Below are positions 56,105 to 62,690 of a DNA stretch of 64,000 nucleotides, piece after piece; positions within the stretch are counted from its first letter, which is position 1, and every line of letters begins with the position of its first letter. The translations under genes and the position numbers were made by a program. Origin of the DNA: Catellatospora sp. IY07-71 (GTDB lineage: Bacteria > Actinomycetota > Actinomycetes > Mycobacteriales > Micromonosporaceae). The notes under the pieces were generated by a model, which saw nothing but the letters and a program-made list of their open reading frames with translations, ran no database searches and had not been told where the DNA came from. The DNA lies in the NCBI RefSeq assembly GCF_018326265.1, contig NZ_AP023360.1, forward strand, positions 1,231,501 to 1,295,500. Direction: 5' to 3'.

Positions 56105-56854
56105 ATGATCGGTATGGTGCTGGCCGCGGGCGCCGGGCGCCGGCTGCGCCCCTACACCGACACGCTGCCCAAGGCCCTGGTGCCGGTGGACGGCGAAACG
56201 ACGATCTTCGACATCGCGCTGCGCAACCTGGCGAAGGTCGGGCTCACCGAGGTCGTGGTCGTGGTGGGCTACCGGGCCGAGGCCGTGGAGGTCCGCAAGG
56301 CCGCCCTGGAGGAGAAGTACGGCATCACCCTCACCCTCGTGCACAACGACAAGGCCGAGGAGTGGAACAACGCGTACTCCCTGTGGCTGGCCCGCGAGCA
56401 CTTCGCCCGGGGCGCGCTGCTCGTCAACGGCGACACCGTGCACCCGGTCTCCGTCGAGCAGACCCTGCTCGCCGCCGCGCAGGACGAGAAGTACGCCGAC
56501 GCGGGCATCATCCTCGCCCTCGACGACCAGAAGCAGCTGGCCGACGAGGAGATGAAGGCGATCTTCACCGAGGACGGCCTGCTCCAGAAGATCACCAAGC
56601 TGATGGACCCGGCGACCGCGCACGGCGAGTACATCGGCGCCACGCTGATCCGCCCCGAGGCCGCCGAGGCGCTGGCCGACGCGCTGAAGACCACCTTCGA
56701 GCACGACCCCAACCGCTTCTACGAGGACGGCTACCAGGTGCTGGCCGACCGCGGGGGCGTCATCCGCGGCGCGTCCATCGGGAACGTCTCCTGGGTCGAG
56801 GTCGACAACCACGACGACCTCGCCCGCGCACGGGAGATCGCATGCCACTACTGA
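56105..56854 (+). CDS. Sugar/polyol-phosphate nucleotidyltransferase (CTP-type)
   Basis: A 249-residue cytosolic enzyme of the phosphocholine cytidylyltransferase-like nucleotidyltransferase family. The N-terminal signature is MVLAAGAGRRLRPYTDTLPK with LVPVDGE; the catalytic Asp is in LLVNGDTVHPV; the C-terminal part (YEDGYQVLADRGGVI, VEVDNHDDLARARE) carries the second metal ligands. It would transfer a nucleotide to a polyol or choline phosphate, giving a CDP-alcohol. AAGGAG precedes the ATG. It is the first gene of three overlapping genes; its last 13 bases overlap the next start. Confidence 0.92.
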   Translation: MIGMVLAAGAGRRLRPYTDTLPKALVPVDGETTIFDIALRNLAKVGLTEVVVVVGYRAEAVEVRKAALEEKYGITLTLVHNDKAEEWNNAYSLWLAREHFARGALLVNGDTVHPVSVEQTLLAAAQDEKYADAGIILALDDQKQLADEEMKAIFTEDGLLQKITKLMDPATAHGEYIGATLIRPEAAEALADALKTTFEHDPNRFYEDGYQVLADRGGVIRGASIGNVSWVEVDNHDDLARAREIACHY

Positions 56855-57912
56855 TCCGCTCGGTCCAGACGCCGCTGAGCATCGAGGTGCGGCGCGGGGC
56901 GGTCGAAGGCCTGGCCGCGCTCCTCACCGACCGGCGCATCTCCGCCGGTGGCGACGTGGCGGTCGTGGTCGGGCCCGGTCAGGGGCAGCGCATCGTCGAG
57001 CTGGTGGGACCCTCCCTGGAACGGGCCGAGTTCATCAACATCAGCGGGGGCACCCTCGACTCCGCGCTGGAGCTGGGCCAGCGGCTGCGCGGGCGCAACT
57101 TCGACGCCGTCGTCGGCATCGGCGGCGGCAAGACCATCGACACCACGAAGTACGCCGCGACGCGGTACGGCCTGCCCATGGTCAGCGTCGCGACGAGCCT
57201 CGCCAACGACGGCATCGCCTCGCCGATCGCCACCCTCGACCACGACGGCGGCCGGCCCTCGTACAGCGCGCACATCCCGATCGCCGTGGTCGTCGACCTG
57301 GACTTCGTCGAGGCGGGACCGGACCGGTCCACCCGGGCGGGCATCGGCGAGACGCTGAGCAACATCAACGCCATCGCCGACTGGGAGCTCGCCCACCGGA
57401 TGCGCGGCGAGCCGATCGACGGCCTGGCCGTGGCGATGGCGCGCTCCGGCGCGGAGGCGGTGGTCAACCACCCCGGCGACATGAGCGACGACGGCTTCCT
57501 CACCGTGCTGGCCGAGTCGCTGATCACCGGCGGCCTGGCCATGGCGATCTGCGGATCGTCCCGCCCGGCCAGCGGCGGCTGCCACGAGATCTCGCACGCG
57601 CTCGACATCCTGTTCCCGGGCACGGCCAGCCACGGCGAGCAGTGCGGCGTGGGCGCGCTGTTCTGCACGTTCCTGCGCGCGTCCACCGACAAGGCGTGGG
57701 CGGCACGGTTCGAGCAGCTGAGCGCCTGCCTCGCCCGGCACGGGCTGCCGCGCACCCCGGCCGATCTGGGCCTGACCGACGAGCAGTTCGTCGACGCGGT
57801 CGAGTTCGCGCCGCGGACCCGGCCCGACCGGTACACGATCCTGGAGCACCTCGCCCTCAGCCGCGACGAGCTGGGCGAGCGGGTGGCAGACTACGCGGAT
57901 GCCGTCCACTGA
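56842..57912 (+). CDS. Glycerol-1-phosphate dehydrogenase-like iron-containing alcohol dehydrogenase
   Basis: A 356-residue enzyme. NAD-binding GGGKTIDTTKYAATRYG and the family-specific TSLANDGIASPIATL match the archaeal/bacterial sn-glycerol-1-phosphate dehydrogenases (EgsA, AraM). The metal site is Asp in that loop region plus His in GCHEISHALDILF and ASHGEQCG. The expected reaction is dihydroxyacetone phosphate plus NAD(P)H to glycerol-1-phosphate, or a related keto-phosphate to polyol phosphate. It overlaps its upstream neighbour by 13 bases and the downstream one by 14. The true substrate cannot be read from the sequence. Confidence 0.92.
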   Translation: MPLLIRSVQTPLSIEVRRGAVEGLAALLTDRRISAGGDVAVVVGPGQGQRIVELVGPSLERAEFINISGGTLDSALELGQRLRGRNFDAVVGIGGGKTIDTTKYAATRYGLPMVSVATSLANDGIASPIATLDHDGGRPSYSAHIPIAVVVDLDFVEAGPDRSTRAGIGETLSNINAIADWELAHRMRGEPIDGLAVAMARSGAEAVVNHPGDMSDDGFLTVLAESLITGGLAMAICGSSRPASGGCHEISHALDILFPGTASHGEQCGVGALFCTFLRASTDKAWAARFEQLSACLARHGLPRTPADLGLTDEQFVDAVEFAPRTRPDRYTILEHLALSRDELGERVADYADAVH

Positions 57913-58603
57913 CACGCTGACCCCGCACCGCCCCGGTGTCGCCGACTTCTACGCGGTGAACCGGGGCGGCGGGCTGTTCTCCGAGGCCCTCAGCCAGCGC
58001 ATCGGCGCGGTGATCGCCCTGGTCGCGTCCCGCACGGGCGCGAAACCGACCACGCTCACCCTGATCAACCTGCTGCTCGGCATCGCCGTGTCGACGGTGC
58101 TCGTGCTGCGCGCCCAGGACGGCACGGCCGCGATCACCCCGGTGTACGGGCTGCTCGCGCTGCTCGGCTGGCAGCTCGCGTACGCCCTCGACTGCGCGGA
58201 CGGGCAGCTGGCCCGGGTGACCGGGCAGGGCAGCCTGGCCGGGGCCCGGATCGACATCCTGTGCGACGTGGCCTCGCAGATCCTGCTGGTCACCGCGCTG
58301 GTGGCGATCGGCCGCCCGCCGCTGTGGCTCGGCGCGCTGTTCGCCGGCTCGTGGATGGTCAACCTCGTCACCAGCGTCCTGGCCACCAGCGACAAGGCCG
58401 CCTCGATGGTCACCTCGACCTCGCTGCCGGTCCGCGTGGTCAAGCTGGTCCGCGACTACGGCGCCGTCATCTTCGTGGCGGGCCTGGTCCTCACCATCGC
58501 CCCCGCCCTGACGATCTGGTTCATCGCCGCCTTCACCGTCGTGAACTTCGGCTTCCTCCTGGCCAGCATCGCCTTCACCGCCCGCACCGCCTACCGCGCC
58601 TGA
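57899..58603 (+). CDS. CDP-alcohol phosphatidyltransferase
   Basis: A 234-residue integral membrane enzyme. The catalytic motif D-x2-D-G-x2-A-R-x8-G-x3-D-x3-D is intact: DCADGQLAR (begins near residue 98), eight residues, then GARIDILCD. Six hydrophobic segments. It transfers a phosphoalcohol from a CDP-alcohol to an acceptor alcohol with release of CMP. The preceding genes could make the CDP-alcohol, so the product may be a phosphodiester lipid or polyol phosphate. The ATG overlaps the previous stop by 14 bases. Confidence 0.92.
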   Translation: MPSTDTLTPHRPGVADFYAVNRGGGLFSEALSQRIGAVIALVASRTGAKPTTLTLINLLLGIAVSTVLVLRAQDGTAAITPVYGLLALLGWQLAYALDCADGQLARVTGQGSLAGARIDILCDVASQILLVTALVAIGRPPLWLGALFAGSWMVNLVTSVLATSDKAASMVTSTSLPVRVVKLVRDYGAVIFVAGLVLTIAPALTIWFIAAFTVVNFGFLLASIAFTARTAYRA

Positions 58604-58782: not shown

Positions 58783-58857
58783 GATCGTTCGACTTGCCAG
58801 GCAGGTGGGCGAATGGCGGGTCAAGATACGCCCAGGTGCCAGGCAAGTCGGATGATC
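58783..58857. repeat. 75-base palindromic element, copy 2
   Basis: Same length as the element at 6119-6193, in the opposite orientation, with about ten base differences after reversal. The core GGGCGTATCTTGACCCG is kept (reversed here as CGGGTCAAGATACGCCC). It overlaps the stop codon of the GT4 gene at 58856 by two bases. Confidence 0.88.
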
Positions 58858-60013
58858 AAGAAGGGCGGCGGAGGGAGTCGTAGACGGCGAGGAGCTTCGA
58901 CGTGACGACGTCGGGGTGGAAGGTCTGTTCGTAGCGGCGGCGGGCCGTCTCGGAGAGGGTGGGGGCCGCCTTGAGGGCGTCGGGGAGGGCGGCGGCCCAG
59001 TCCTCGGCGGTGGGCGGGACGGCGAAACCGGCGCTGTCGATCAGGTACGGGATGCCGCCCAGCGTGGTGCCGATGACGGGGCGGCCGGCCGCCAGCGCCT
59101 CGATGATGACCGTGGGCAGCACGTCGTGCCAGGTCGACGGGGCGGCGAACAGGGCCGAGGCGCGGAACGCGGCGCGTACCCCCGCCCGGTCCTGCGGGCC
59201 CAGGAACTCCACGTCCCGGCGCTCGGCCGCGGCCTGCTCGGCGAGCGGGCGCAGCTCGCCGTCGCCGACGATGCGCAGCGTGCCGAGCGAGCCGTCGGGG
59301 TGCCGCCGCCAGGCGTCGAGCAGCAGGCCGAGGCCCTTCTCGGGAGAGAGCCGGCCGACGAACAGCAGGCCCTCGCCGGGCTGGGCGGGCTGACCCGGGT
59401 CGTCGACGCCGTTGGGCTTGACCACGATGCGCTCGTCGGGGATGCCGAAGTCGCGCAGGTGGTCGGCGATGGCGCCGGTCAGCGCGATGTAACGGTCGAC
59501 CGAGCGCCAGGTGCCACGGTGCACGGCCAGCGTGGTCGCCATGATCGCGCTCTGCGCGGTGGAGCCCCGGTAGCACTTGTGCTTGATCGCGGGCAGGGCG
59601 AACGCCTTCCCGCGGCACTCGTGGCAGGCATGGCCGTCGCGGAAGTAGAGACCGGGCGCGCAGACCTGCCGGTAGTTGTGCACCGTCTGCACCACCGGCA
59701 CGCCGTGGGCGTGCGCGGTCCGCACCACCCAGGGCGAGAGCAGCGGGTACGGGTTGTGCAGGTGCAGCACGTCCGGCCGCTCCCGGCGGATGAGCGCGGT
59801 GAGGTCGCGCTGCGCGGCGGGGGCCCAGATCGGGGAGATCGGCAGCAGCACCTTCTGGGCGGCCGACAGCGACGGGATGTCGTCGGAGTTGCGCAGGAAC
59901 GGCAGCACGGTGACCCCGGCCGCCGCGAGCTGCGCCATCTCCTGGTCGACGATGACGTTCTCACCCGAGGGCAGCTCGGAGCGATACCGGTTGTGGGCGA
60001 CGACGACCTTCAA
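58856..60013 (-). CDS. Family 4 glycosyltransferase
   Basis: A 385-residue GT-B enzyme. Start TTG 60013, selected by GGGAG six bases upstream; the protein then begins KVVVAHNRYRSELPSGENVI, the usual GT4 beginning. The Cys/His set (QVCAPGLYFRDGHACHECRG, HKCYRG) is typical of a subgroup. The nucleotide-binding half has FVGRLSPEKGLGLLLDAW and the EX7E-like PSTWHDVLPTVIIEALAAGR. It transfers a sugar in polysaccharide or glycolipid assembly; donor and acceptor are unknown. It is divergent from fpg, 46 bases between the starts. Confidence 0.9.
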   Translation of the reverse strand: MKVVVAHNRYRSELPSGENVIVDQEMAQLAAAGVTVLPFLRNSDDIPSLSAAQKVLLPISPIWAPAAQRDLTALIRRERPDVLHLHNPYPLLSPWVVRTAHAHGVPVVQTVHNYRQVCAPGLYFRDGHACHECRGKAFALPAIKHKCYRGSTAQSAIMATTLAVHRGTWRSVDRYIALTGAIADHLRDFGIPDERIVVKPNGVDDPGQPAQPGEGLLFVGRLSPEKGLGLLLDAWRRHPDGSLGTLRIVGDGELRPLAEQAAAERRDVEFLGPQDRAGVRAAFRASALFAAPSTWHDVLPTVIIEALAAGRPVIGTTLGGIPYLIDSAGFAVPPTAEDWAAALPDALKAAPTLSETARRRYEQTFHPDVVTSKLLAVYDSLRRPS

Positions 60014-60059
60014 CTGCTGCTCCCTGCTGTGTTGTCGATAGAACGGTAGCGTTAGCGCC

Positions 60060-60914
60060 GTGCCAGAGTTGCCCGAGGTGGAGGCTCTCGCCGCGTACCT
60101 GCGTGAGCGAGCCGTCGGCCAGCGCGTCGAGCGGGTCGACGTGTCGGCGATCAGCGCCCTGAAGACGTTCGACCCGCCCCTGTCGGCCCTGCACGGCCGC
60201 ACGGTCACCGGCGCGGGCCGGCACGGCAAGTTTCTCGACGTCGAGCTGGACGACCTGCACCTGGTGATCCACCTGTCCCGGGCGGGCTGGCTGCACTACC
60301 GCGACGCGCCGCCGGACACGCTGCTGAAGCCGGGCAAGGGCCCGATCGCGCTGCGGGTGCGGCTGGGCGACGGGTCGGGCTTCGACCTGACCGAGGCCGG
60401 TACGCAGAAGCGCCTGGCGGCCTACCTGGTGACCGACGTGGGGCAGGTGCCCGGGATCGCGCGGCTCGGGCCGGACGCGCTCAGCCTGGACCTGGCCGCC
60501 TTCACCGAGCTGATGCGCGGCCGCAACGCCCAGATCAAGGGCGTGCTGCGCGACCAGCAGGTGATCGCGGGCGTCGGCAACGCGTACTCCGACGAGATCC
60601 TGCACACCGCGCGAGTGTCGCCGTACGCGCGGGCGGACCGGCTCTCACCTGAACAGCTGGAGAACCTGCACGCGGCGATGACGCAGGTGCTGACCGAGGC
60701 GGTGACCAAGTCGGTGGGGCAGAAGGCGGCCACGCTGAAGGCGGAGAAGCGCGCGGGCCTGCGGGTGCACGGGCGGGCTGGGCAGCCGTGTCCGGTCTGC
60801 GGCGATACGGTGCGTGAGGTGTCGTTCGCCGATTCGAGCCTGCAGTACTGCCCGACGTGCCAAACAGGGGGTAAACCGCTCGCAGATCGTCGACTTTCCA
60901 AACTCCTGCGCTAG
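60060..60914 (+). CDS. Formamidopyrimidine-DNA glycosylase / endonuclease VIII family
   Basis: A 284-residue base-excision repair enzyme. After Met removal the N-terminal Pro attacks the damaged nucleotide (PELPEVEALA, with the catalytic Glu). The conserved Lys is in GAGRHGKFLDVELDD; the helix-two-turn-helix is NAQIKGVLRDQQVIAGVGNA followed by YSDEILHTARVSPYA. The zinc finger is CPVCG ... YCPTCQTGGK. GTG start. Actinobacteria have several Fpg/Nei paralogs, so whether it prefers oxidised purines or pyrimidines is not decided. Confidence 0.92.
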   Translation: MPELPEVEALAAYLRERAVGQRVERVDVSAISALKTFDPPLSALHGRTVTGAGRHGKFLDVELDDLHLVIHLSRAGWLHYRDAPPDTLLKPGKGPIALRVRLGDGSGFDLTEAGTQKRLAAYLVTDVGQVPGIARLGPDALSLDLAAFTELMRGRNAQIKGVLRDQQVIAGVGNAYSDEILHTARVSPYARADRLSPEQLENLHAAMTQVLTEAVTKSVGQKAATLKAEKRAGLRVHGRAGQPCPVCGDTVREVSFADSSLQYCPTCQTGGKPLADRRLSKLLR

Positions 60915-61124
60915 TGTCGCCCACGGCCCAGTTCGTATAGTGTCCCGGTCCTGGGGTGTTCGGATGACACGGTCGCAAACGGTGTCTCCCGCCGACCTCG
61001 GACAAACCATGCGAGACTGAACGTCGTGGGCGACACCCGTCCTGCCGCACGTTCCGATCGCAGGGCTGCAGCACTGACCGGCACCACCGGGCAGGAACGT
61101 GACGCACGGGAGGACCCAGGTGAG

Positions 61125-62690
61125 GTGACGACGAGCCTGAAGCACCCGACCACCGTGCCCAAGCGGTCGAATGTCCCGGACTACGTAGCCGATCGATACG
61201 AGCTGCCCCCCGTGCCGAAGACCAACGGCGTGGCACGCAACGCGTTCGCCCGCCCCACCGCGCGCCGGGCCCGCTGGCACCGGCCGTACCTGCTCTGCCT
61301 GATCATCTCCGACCTGCTGTGCGTGATGGCGGCGAGCTGGACCGTGATCTCGCAGCTGGAGATCAACCGAGTCACCTCGGGTTTCGAGGGGATCGTCGAG
61401 TTCCAGGTGGCGGCGTACGCGTTCATGCCGCTGCTGTGGCTGCTGCTGCTGTGGGGCAACGGCGCCTACGACCGGCGCGTCATCGGGCTGGGCACCGACG
61501 AGTTCAAGCGCGTCTTCCGGGCCACCATCGCGGTCGCCGCGACGGTCTCGTTCGTCGCCTTCGGTTTCCAGAAGGCCGGTGGCGAGGGCCTGTCCCGCGG
61601 CACGGTCGCCTTCGTGATCCTGGCGGCGATGGCGTACATCATCGCGGCTCGGCTGCTCGCCCGGCGCGTGCTCTACCTGGTGCGCCGCCGCGGCCGGATG
61701 GCCACGTACCGGATGCTGCTCATCGGCTCGCTGCCGGAGACGCTGTTCGTGTACAAGGTCGTCGCCCGCAACCCGAAGGCCGGCCTGGTCCCCGTCGCGA
61801 TCCACCTGTCCGAGCACGTGCCCGCCTCCCGGCGGTCGCAGGCCCCGGTGCCGGTGTACTACGGCCGCGACCTGGTCGACCTGGTGCGCGAGCTGCGCGC
61901 GGACACCATCGCGGTGTGCGGCTCGGCCGGCGCGGAGCCCGACGAGCTGCGCCGCCTGGCCTGGCAGCTGGAGGGCACCGGCATCGACCTGGTGGTCGCG
62001 CCGCAGCTCACCGACATCGCCGGCCCCCGCGTGCACATCCGCCCGATCGAGGGCCTGCCGCTGCTGCACGTCGAGGAGCCGAAGCTCTCCGGCGTCGCCT
62101 GGCTGGCCAAGAACACGCTGGACCGGGTCGCGGCCGCCATCGGCCTGATCCTGCTGGCGCCGCTGTTCCTGCTGATCTCGCTCGCCATCTCGCTGACCGA
62201 CCGGGGCCCGGCGTTCTTCCGCCAGCTGCGCGTCGGCCACGAGGGTCAGCTGTTCAAGGTGTGGAAGTTCCGCACCATGTACACCGACGCGGAGGAGCGC
62301 AAGAGCAAGCTGGAAGCGCAGAACGAGACCGACGGCATGCTCTTCAAGATCCGCGACGATCCGCGGGTCACGCCGGTCGGCCGGTTCCTGCGCGCCAGCT
62401 CGATCGACGAGCTGCCCCAGCTGATCAACGTGCTCAAGGGCGAGATGTCCCTGGTCGGGCCGCGCCCGCTGCCCGCCGAGGACGGCGACTACCTGGGCGA
62501 CGTACGCCGCCGCCTGCTGGTCCGCCCCGGCATGACCGGCCTGTGGCAGGTCTCCGGCCGCTCCGACCTGAACTGGGACGAGTCGGTCCGGCTGGACCTG
62601 TACTACGTCGACAACTGGTCGCTCGCGTACGACCTGAGCATCCTTTGGCGGACCGTCGGTGTCGTGCTGCGCCGCAAGGGTGCCTACTAG
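61125..62690 (+). CDS. Polyprenyl-phosphate sugar-phosphate transferase (exopolysaccharide initiating)
   Basis: A 521-residue inner-membrane enzyme. Five hydrophobic segments (about residues 60-190) are followed by a cytoplasmic CoA-binding-like region, then the catalytic PglC/WbaP domain: LDRVAAAIGLILLAPLFLLI, GPAFFRQLRVG, LFKVWKFRTMYTDAEERKS, SSIDELPQLINVLKGEMSLV, GPRPLPAEDG, and RPGMTGLWQVSGRSDLNWDE. It moves a hexose phosphate from a nucleotide sugar to undecaprenyl phosphate, starting exopolysaccharide synthesis. The GTG at 61125 has GGGAGGA upstream; a GTG at 61026 would add 33 low-complexity residues. No other exopolysaccharide genes are visible downstream. Confidence 0.93.
   Translation: MTTSLKHPTTVPKRSNVPDYVADRYELPPVPKTNGVARNAFARPTARRARWHRPYLLCLIISDLLCVMAASWTVISQLEINRVTSGFEGIVEFQVAAYAFMPLLWLLLLWGNGAYDRRVIGLGTDEFKRVFRATIAVAATVSFVAFGFQKAGGEGLSRGTVAFVILAAMAYIIAARLLARRVLYLVRRRGRMATYRMLLIGSLPETLFVYKVVARNPKAGLVPVAIHLSEHVPASRRSQAPVPVYYGRDLVDLVRELRADTIAVCGSAGAEPDELRRLAWQLEGTGIDLVVAPQLTDIAGPRVHIRPIEGLPLLHVEEPKLSGVAWLAKNTLDRVAAAIGLILLAPLFLLISLAISLTDRGPAFFRQLRVGHEGQLFKVWKFRTMYTDAEERKSKLEAQNETDGMLFKIRDDPRVTPVGRFLRASSIDELPQLINVLKGEMSLVGPRPLPAEDGDYLGDVRRRLLVRPGMTGLWQVSGRSDLNWDESVRLDLYYVDNWSLAYDLSILWRTVGVVLRRKGAY

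Follow-up and report, generated by a model that had tools for sequence, protein, structure and literature searches.

In the 64,000-nucleotide stretch of Catellatospora sp. IY07-71 analysed here (contig NZ_AP023360.1, positions 1,231,501 to 1,295,500; hereafter the window), three genes lie head to tail and encode a nucleotidyltransferase (NT), a dehydrogenase resembling sn-glycerol-1-phosphate dehydrogenase (G1PDH) and a class I cytidine diphosphate (CDP)-alcohol phosphotransferase (CAPT). NT and G1PDH overlap by 13 bases and G1PDH and CAPT by 14, and both the coordinates and the Pfam matches agreed with the overlapping trio that an earlier note on this DNA had described. The genome holding the window (G000) is 8.6 Mb in a single contig, and the closest named relatives at the trio locus are Catellatospora species. 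Third-position GC was 0.98, 0.96 and 0.99 in NT, G1PDH and CAPT, respectively, a Shine-Dalgarno-like AAGGAG lies upstream of NT, and CAPT is the sole transferase within the window operon. We propose, with a probability of roughly 55%, that the trio is a CDP-1-glycerol module from which CAPT, or TagF, would move sn-glycerol-1-phosphate (G1P) to a polymer of the cell surface or to a precursor of one. What is established is that the genes are present, overlap, are linked and co-occur, and to which families they belong; enzyme activity, stereochemistry and acceptor are predictions.

Table 1 Genes of the trio and of its conserved flank, in window positions.
Feature	Position	Strand	Remarks
NT, LicC/IPCT-like nucleotidyltransferase	56105..56854	+	249 aa; proposed CTP:sn-glycerol-1-phosphate cytidylyltransferase
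G1PDH-like dehydrogenase	56842..57912	+	356 aa; proposed to convert dihydroxyacetone phosphate to sn-glycerol-1-phosphate
CAPT, class I CDP-alcohol phosphotransferase	57899..58603	+	234 aa; proposed glycerol-1-phosphate transfer to an acceptor
GT4 glycosyltransferase, convergent neighbour	58856..60229	-	PF13692/PF13439
Polyprenyl glycosylphosphotransferase (exopolysaccharide synthesis start)	61026..62690	+	TIGR03025 400.7 bits, cut-off 295.55

Family assignment of the three proteins

All three proteins passed the Pfam cut-offs of their families, NT matching PF00483 at 55.4 bits (cut-off 21.2), G1PDH matching PF13685 at 107.3 bits (cut-off 28) and CAPT matching PF01066 at 36.6 bits (cut-off 22). 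When the NT profile was compared with the PDB, the top three solved enzymes were all users of cytidine triphosphate (CTP), and LicC and PntC were among its closest solved relatives. Together with the automatic annotation of NT as 'phosphocholine cytidylyltransferase family', these relatives would suit an enzyme for phosphocholine or phosphonate, to which G1PDH is linked for some other reason. We consider this highly improbable, since it leaves the exact co-occurrence and adjacency of NT with G1PDH, described below, unexplained, and since no choline- or phosphonate-like gene was found among the seven proteins of the window stretch run against Pfam. CpgD, a cytidylyltransferase that makes CDP-glycerate, gave no product from glycerol-1-phosphate (PMC12275187), and such cytidylyltransferases can therefore discriminate.

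G1PDH scored 255.3 bits (E 8e-76) against the glycerol-1-phosphate dehydrogenase equivalog NF002022, under the cut-off of 413, and by this profile it is a relative and not a member of the equivalog. G1PDHs were its nearest solved relatives, the best being 4rgq (E 6e-49); one chain named as a glycerol dehydrogenase, 3ce9, reached 6e-43, and other glycerol dehydrogenases appeared only from 4e-15. Residues D123, D180, H248, H252 and H264 were invariant across 14 aligned sequences, one archaeal among them, and D123, D180, H248 and H264 have the same letters in 4rgq; we take these four to be metal and substrate residues. A dehydrogenase acting on a keto-phosphate other than dihydroxyacetone phosphate, with another CDP-polyol as the product (CDP-2-glycerol, a tetritol or a pentitol), would be consistent with the score under the NF002022 cut-off and with a superfamily that includes further polyol dehydrogenases; CDP-2-glycerol and CDP-arabinitol pathways exist. 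The ranking of solved relatives and the residues held in common with the archaeal sequence, whose roles we presume, argue against it and make it improbable.

The CAPT signature D..DG..AR(8)G...D...D was complete in its eight residues from residue 98, confirming the intact motif claimed earlier. Against the PDB, the CAPT profile was led by CEPT1/CHPT1, AF2299 and DIPPS, with CDP-diacylglycerol enzymes far weaker; the closest relatives handle small polar CDP-alcohols. The predicted model had a pLDDT of 69, and its first 21 Foldseek rows were CDP-alcohol phosphotransferases, all at E 2.5e-3 or more. Two CAPT arginines stand 62 and 106 residues past the fourth Asp of the signature; the arginines that bind phosphate in mycobacterial PIP synthase have a similar spacing, 62 and 102 (PMC4634129). 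The CAPT spacing is only a hint, because the alignment with the six other CAPTs of G000, on which the acceptor-site comparison was made, was unreliable in the C-terminal half.

These likenesses also bear on a soluble product, such as glycerophosphoinositol or the compatible solute diglycerol phosphate. To make it, CAPT would join CDP-1-glycerol to a phosphorylated acceptor that is itself soluble, inositol-1-phosphate for instance. Six-transmembrane CDP-alcohol phosphotransferases have been described with soluble acceptors, and AF2299, which with DIPPS is among the structures nearest CAPT, holds the glycerol of CDP-glycerol (PMC4634129). Archaeoglobus lysates are reported to show a G1P-preferring glycerol phosphate cytidylyltransferase activity from an unidentified enzyme (PMC8262930), and the arginine spacing points weakly in the same direction. 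We nevertheless regard a soluble product as the less likely reading, though a serious alternative and the strongest of those considered, since the operons of relatives hold exporters, glycosyltransferases, TagF-like and DUF5941 genes, and the conserved flanks at the trio site include polysaccharide genes. Against the IPCT-DIPPS model NF041135 of the di-myo-inositol phosphate pathway (cut-off 580), NT and CAPT scored 48.6 and 22.6 bits, respectively, neither passing.

Conservation of the trio

Conservation was examined in a family sample of 81 Micromonosporaceae genomes and a phylum sample of 396 genomes. The NT, G1PDH and CAPT counts across the 81 genomes derive from searches and not from the simple gene caller, which in several loci placed G1PDH on the wrong strand (cluster 16); the single-linkage clusters used for neighbouring genes are loose. 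The named loci and the genome counts are not independent, as G445, for example, is the record of L002, G410 that of L008, G459 that of L014 and G433 that of L013.

NT and G1PDH occurred in an identical set of 53/81 Micromonosporaceae genomes. The two genes adjoined each other in 52 of these 53, in 39 with the identical overlap (10 bases when measured from the coding matches, 13 once the stop is counted), and CAPT came next after the pair in 43. The trio was thus conserved together, and the proposal of the earlier note was not refuted on this count. G417 was the lone exception to adjacency, with NT and CAPT about 0.3 Mb away from G1PDH; the neighbours of its G1PDH (L106) cluster with a phosphoenolpyruvate (PEP) mutase, a thiamine pyrophosphate (TPP) enzyme and an iron-containing alcohol dehydrogenase (Fe-ADH).

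In the phylum sample, 54 G1PDH matches at E<=1e-20 were found in 52/396 genomes, and among the best 30 of the 54 loci NT lay directly upstream of G1PDH in 27. No NT was seen in L040, which ends at a contig end, in L041, whose wider view is L065, and in L044. G1P of archaeal stereochemistry had been called rare in bacteria in the earlier note; genes of the G1PDH type are instead common in this phylum, and within Micromonosporaceae more than half of the sampled genomes carry one (53/81).

The G1PDH tree had long branches and weak deep support. AraM-type rows from Priestia, Rubrobacter and Sinorhizobium fell outside, and the tree shows no clean NT-linked clade, because the Nitratidesulfovibrio and Cytobacillus rows, which have no NT neighbour, fell inside, in a side branch of poor support. 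Five distant G1PDH-type relatives from these five genera, all carried on plasmid records, had no annotated nucleotidyltransferase within 4-5 kb in a gene table that is incomplete. Phage or plasmid carriage was also considered and set aside: the phage collection gave four weak matches, none spanning 80% of the query, and of 37 matching plasmid records three had at least 80% cover (two Streptomyces, one Nonomuraea).

Association with TagF and DUF5941

In the Bacillus subtilis TagD-TagF pathway to poly(glycerol phosphate) wall teichoic acid, CDP-glycerol is the activated donor. No genome among the 81 had a TagD match (TIGR01518) over the cut-off, which 2/14 control genomes passed; weaker matches, mostly partial, occurred in 58, and the best one in G000 (E 2.5e-7) covered positions 2-67 of 125, below the cut-off. 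Canonical TagD was on this basis rejected as the CDP-glycerol source. TagF, by contrast, matched at E<=1e-40 in 41/81 genomes including G000, in which TagG, TagH and TagF are consecutive at a distance of about 0.63 Mb from the trio.

Among genomes with G1PDH, 49/53 had a match to TagF or DUF5941 at E<=0.001, versus 10/28 of those without it (Fisher p 1e-7). The association held with one genome per genus (25/27 versus 7/17, p 3e-4), and these tests account for phylogeny only to the genus level. Four genomes (G429, G433, G468 and G474) carry the full trio and neither TagF nor DUF5941. On the simplest reading of these gene distributions, NT and G1PDH would supply sn-1 CDP-glycerol to whichever transferase each genome has available, and in those four genomes CAPT alone would use it.

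An archaeal-type ether lipid, in which CAPT would add the head group, is another conceivable destination for G1P. A lipid of this type is supplied by B. subtilis AraM, and Streptomyces species with all three archaeal lipid genes are noted by Coleman et al. (both PMC6431249). A search for PcrB/GGGPS, which recovered B. subtilis as a control, gave no match in G000, and 4/81 genomes matched at E<=0.001, one just above the cut-off; the pathway is disfavoured in G000, and we judge this use of the trio very unlikely. The earlier note had called the product no standard phospholipid of this phylum; the comparative context favours cell-surface glycopolymers over an unusual phospholipid.

G000 also carries a further CAPT (PF01066, 320 aa) near Stealth, TagGH and TagF genes at C1 ~1.9125 Mb (L118:7266-8228), and no DUF5941 match was found in this genome.

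Neighbourhoods in relatives

Beside the trio of the window, the GT4 neighbour was kept in 14/15 named Micromonosporaceae loci (L002-L016; the exception is L010) and the polyprenyl glycosylphosphotransferase in 13/15 (exceptions L010 and L013), the exceptions being short contigs. Compared with C. bangladeshensis (L002), G1PDH was just 86% identical in the main aligned pieces, against 96-100% for NT, for CAPT and for the remaining neighbours listed. At the DNA level, identity was 80-91% across most of G1PDH (window 56842-57785), flanked by 97-100% in the preceding NT and 98-100% at the start of CAPT, so it looks as if one of the two strains acquired a replacement G1PDH through recombination. Four other Catellatospora loci, unlike the window, have an extra gene between CAPT and GT4 (L002:9782-11371, L003:9805-11262, L005:9805-11262 and L007:9878-11368); it was considered as a polymerase or flippase and rejected, the one copy tested matching ATPase families below their cut-offs.

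The annotation of Streptomyces fungicidicus lists, in this order, a DUF5941 protein, NT, G1PDH, CAPT, a glycosyltransferase, an ATP-binding cassette (ABC) permease and an ABC ATPase, followed by hopanoid genes, and Nonomuraea, Rhizohabitans and several further genomes share this order in part. The Streptomyces DUF5941 protein also bears a CAPT domain, so that the operon holds two CAPT-domain proteins. A Streptomyces region with a sugar-phosphate nucleotidyltransferase, araM, a CDP-alcohol phosphatidyltransferase, a GT2, tagG and tagH has been termed teichoic-acid-associated (PMC13118837, 2026); in the part of that paper available, the tagG-tagH-araM region is described by synteny alone, with no enzyme tests and no proposal of CDP-1-glycerol or of stereochemistry.

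The DUF5941-CAPT proteins keep the full CAPT signature in 26/26 cases (L070:9447-11264 included), and in 25 of the 43 Micromonosporaceae genomes with a DUF5941 match a strong TagF match is no more than 3 kb away from it, suggesting that DUF5941-CAPT is probably part of a wall-polymer transferase. No paper on DUF5941 was found in open-licence full texts.

In G440 (L098 and L099) a TagG-type permease comes next after the NT-G1PDH pair. About 8-25 kb away, Pfam matches identified TagH, two Glyphos_transf-like proteins, IspD, Stealth and DUF5941-CAPT, as well as a TPP enzyme, an Fe-ADH and a PEP mutase that carries a fused cytidylyltransferase domain. By clustering, most of these neighbours except Stealth lie within about 30-55 kb in G398 and G460 (L100-L105). 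An NT-G1PDH pair or G1PDH near phosphonate-type genes and Glyphos_transf-like proteins was thus observed in G440 and, by clustering, in G398, G460 and G417, and the G440-type cluster looks like one for a phosphonate-bearing wall polymer.

CAPT in genomes without G1PDH

A CAPT relative was also present in 17/28 Micromonosporaceae genomes without G1PDH, which counts against a CDP-1-glycerol module. In six such loci (L126, L127, L130, L133, L135 and L137) its neighbour is a divergent nucleotidyltransferase, and within the reach of the contigs these loci also hold several flank genes of the window (aminotransferase, CBS, GT4, Fpg and polyprenyl glycosylphosphotransferase). Some G1PDH-less CAPT loci have a nearby protein from a cluster whose single tested member matches Wzy_C; a membrane-protein-like CAPT neighbour (cluster 30) was tested in three copies, none of which matched a Pfam family. 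Judged by this distribution, CAPT is not dedicated to G1P and seems to belong to a polysaccharide-gene site whose activated alcohol is exchangeable; transfer to a surface-polymer precursor is therefore favoured. The earlier suggestion of keto-phosphate reduction, CTP activation and transfer is partly supported: it agrees with the protein families, with the relatives of solved structure and with the conservation of the trio, its substrates being putative and its last step not reserved for G1P.

Several further observations weigh against the proposed CDP-1-glycerol module. No NCBIfam equivalog cut-off was reached by NT, G1PDH or CAPT (25/29 NT families listed), and enzymes using uridine or deoxythymidine triphosphate (UTP, dTTP) come close behind in the fold searches with NT. 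The phylum locus L065 has G1PDH and CAPT and no NT, and second G1PDH copies in G334 (L057) and G421 (L109) lack an NT neighbour. Outside Micromonosporaceae, the CAPT in third position is only about 25% identical, and its fourth Asp is missing in 18/18 proteins (A in 11, H in 7; L017-L021, L052-L055, L061-L066 and L070-L072), compared with D in all 26 Micromonosporaceae rows, in which the window gene is counted twice; the proteins without the fourth Asp may be inactive, regulatory or of other chemistry. Small, near-full-length TIGR01518 matches below the cut-off (4e-16 to 3e-22) in G417, G468, G408, G466, G446 and G412 could be TagD-like. The window trio has no adjoining TagGH- or TagF-like gene, 17/53 G1PDH genomes have no strong TagF, and 5 strong-TagF genomes have no G1PDH. 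Lastly, G000 encodes an IspD-SDR fusion at C1 ~1.668 Mb, with a Glyphos_transf-like protein next after it (L136:2898-6249), presumably a system of the CDP-ribitol type, which could make another CDP-polyol feeding some of the transferases.

Proposed pathway and its relation to known systems

In the pathway we propose for the CDP-1-glycerol module, homology and conserved residues suggest that G1PDH would reduce dihydroxyacetone phosphate to sn-glycerol-1-phosphate, and NT, to judge from its solved relatives and strict linkage, would then convert this with CTP to CDP-sn-1-glycerol. The membrane protein CAPT, assigned to its class by the signature, would pass glycerol-1-phosphate on to an acceptor of polar character. 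The likeliest candidate would be a surface-polymer precursor, either a saccharide linked to a lipid or a phospho-sugar, that the adjacent glycosyltransferase and polyprenyl-phosphate transferase produce. In relatives, transferases of the TagF or DUF5941-CAPT type and an exporter of the TagGH type seem to be supplied by the NT-G1PDH pair, and the shared output would therefore be a teichoic-acid-like or other glycerophosphate-bearing wall polymer.

Like the TagD-TagF pathway, the proposed one would use CDP-glycerol as the donor for a wall polymer, and TagF and TagGH relatives are present in G000; it differs in having no TagD over the cut-off, a predicted sn-1 donor from an unrelated nucleotidyltransferase and a CAPT-type transferase. 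G1PDH resembles the archaeal and AraM enzymes in sequence type and in conserved metal and substrate residues, but is linked to a nucleotidyltransferase instead of PcrB/GGGPS. Archaeal glycerophosphoinositol synthesis and the AF2299 and IPCT-DIPPS proteins of Archaeoglobus likewise combine a cytidylyltransferase and a CAPT acting on polar CDP-alcohols, with G1P preferred in lysates, whereas the trio consists of three separate genes, G1PDH included, in bacteria and at polysaccharide loci. With Lic/Pnt tailoring by the phosphocholine and phosphonate cytidylyltransferases LicC and PntC (PMC6697681), NT shares its fold and the CTP logic of surface-polymer decoration, although its partners are G1PDH and CAPT and not LicD.

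More generally, and more tentatively, many Actinomycetota may make CDP-sn-1-glycerol with an archaeal-type dehydrogenase and a new, G1P-specific cytidylyltransferase family, and may use membrane CDP-alcohol phosphotransferases to assemble or modify wall polymers whose glycerol has the archaeal handedness. Each part is of a familiar kind; what would be new in bacteria is their combination, together with the predicted nucleotide. Open-licence full texts, a scope outside which most subscription journals fall, yielded no biochemical study of these genes. One paper judged CDP-1-glycerol likely absent from bacteria, and its presence is predicted here contrary to that expectation. If this is right, the NT family would be a lead to the enzyme behind the archaeal G1P cytidylyltransferase activity, and bacterial G1PDHs beyond the AraM/ether-lipid route would gain a concrete proposed job. 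The trio would also be a possible source of CDP-glycerol for actinomycetes with TagF and no TagD match over the cut-off, and the wall polymers of common soil genera may have a glycerol handedness opposite to that of classical wall teichoic acid.

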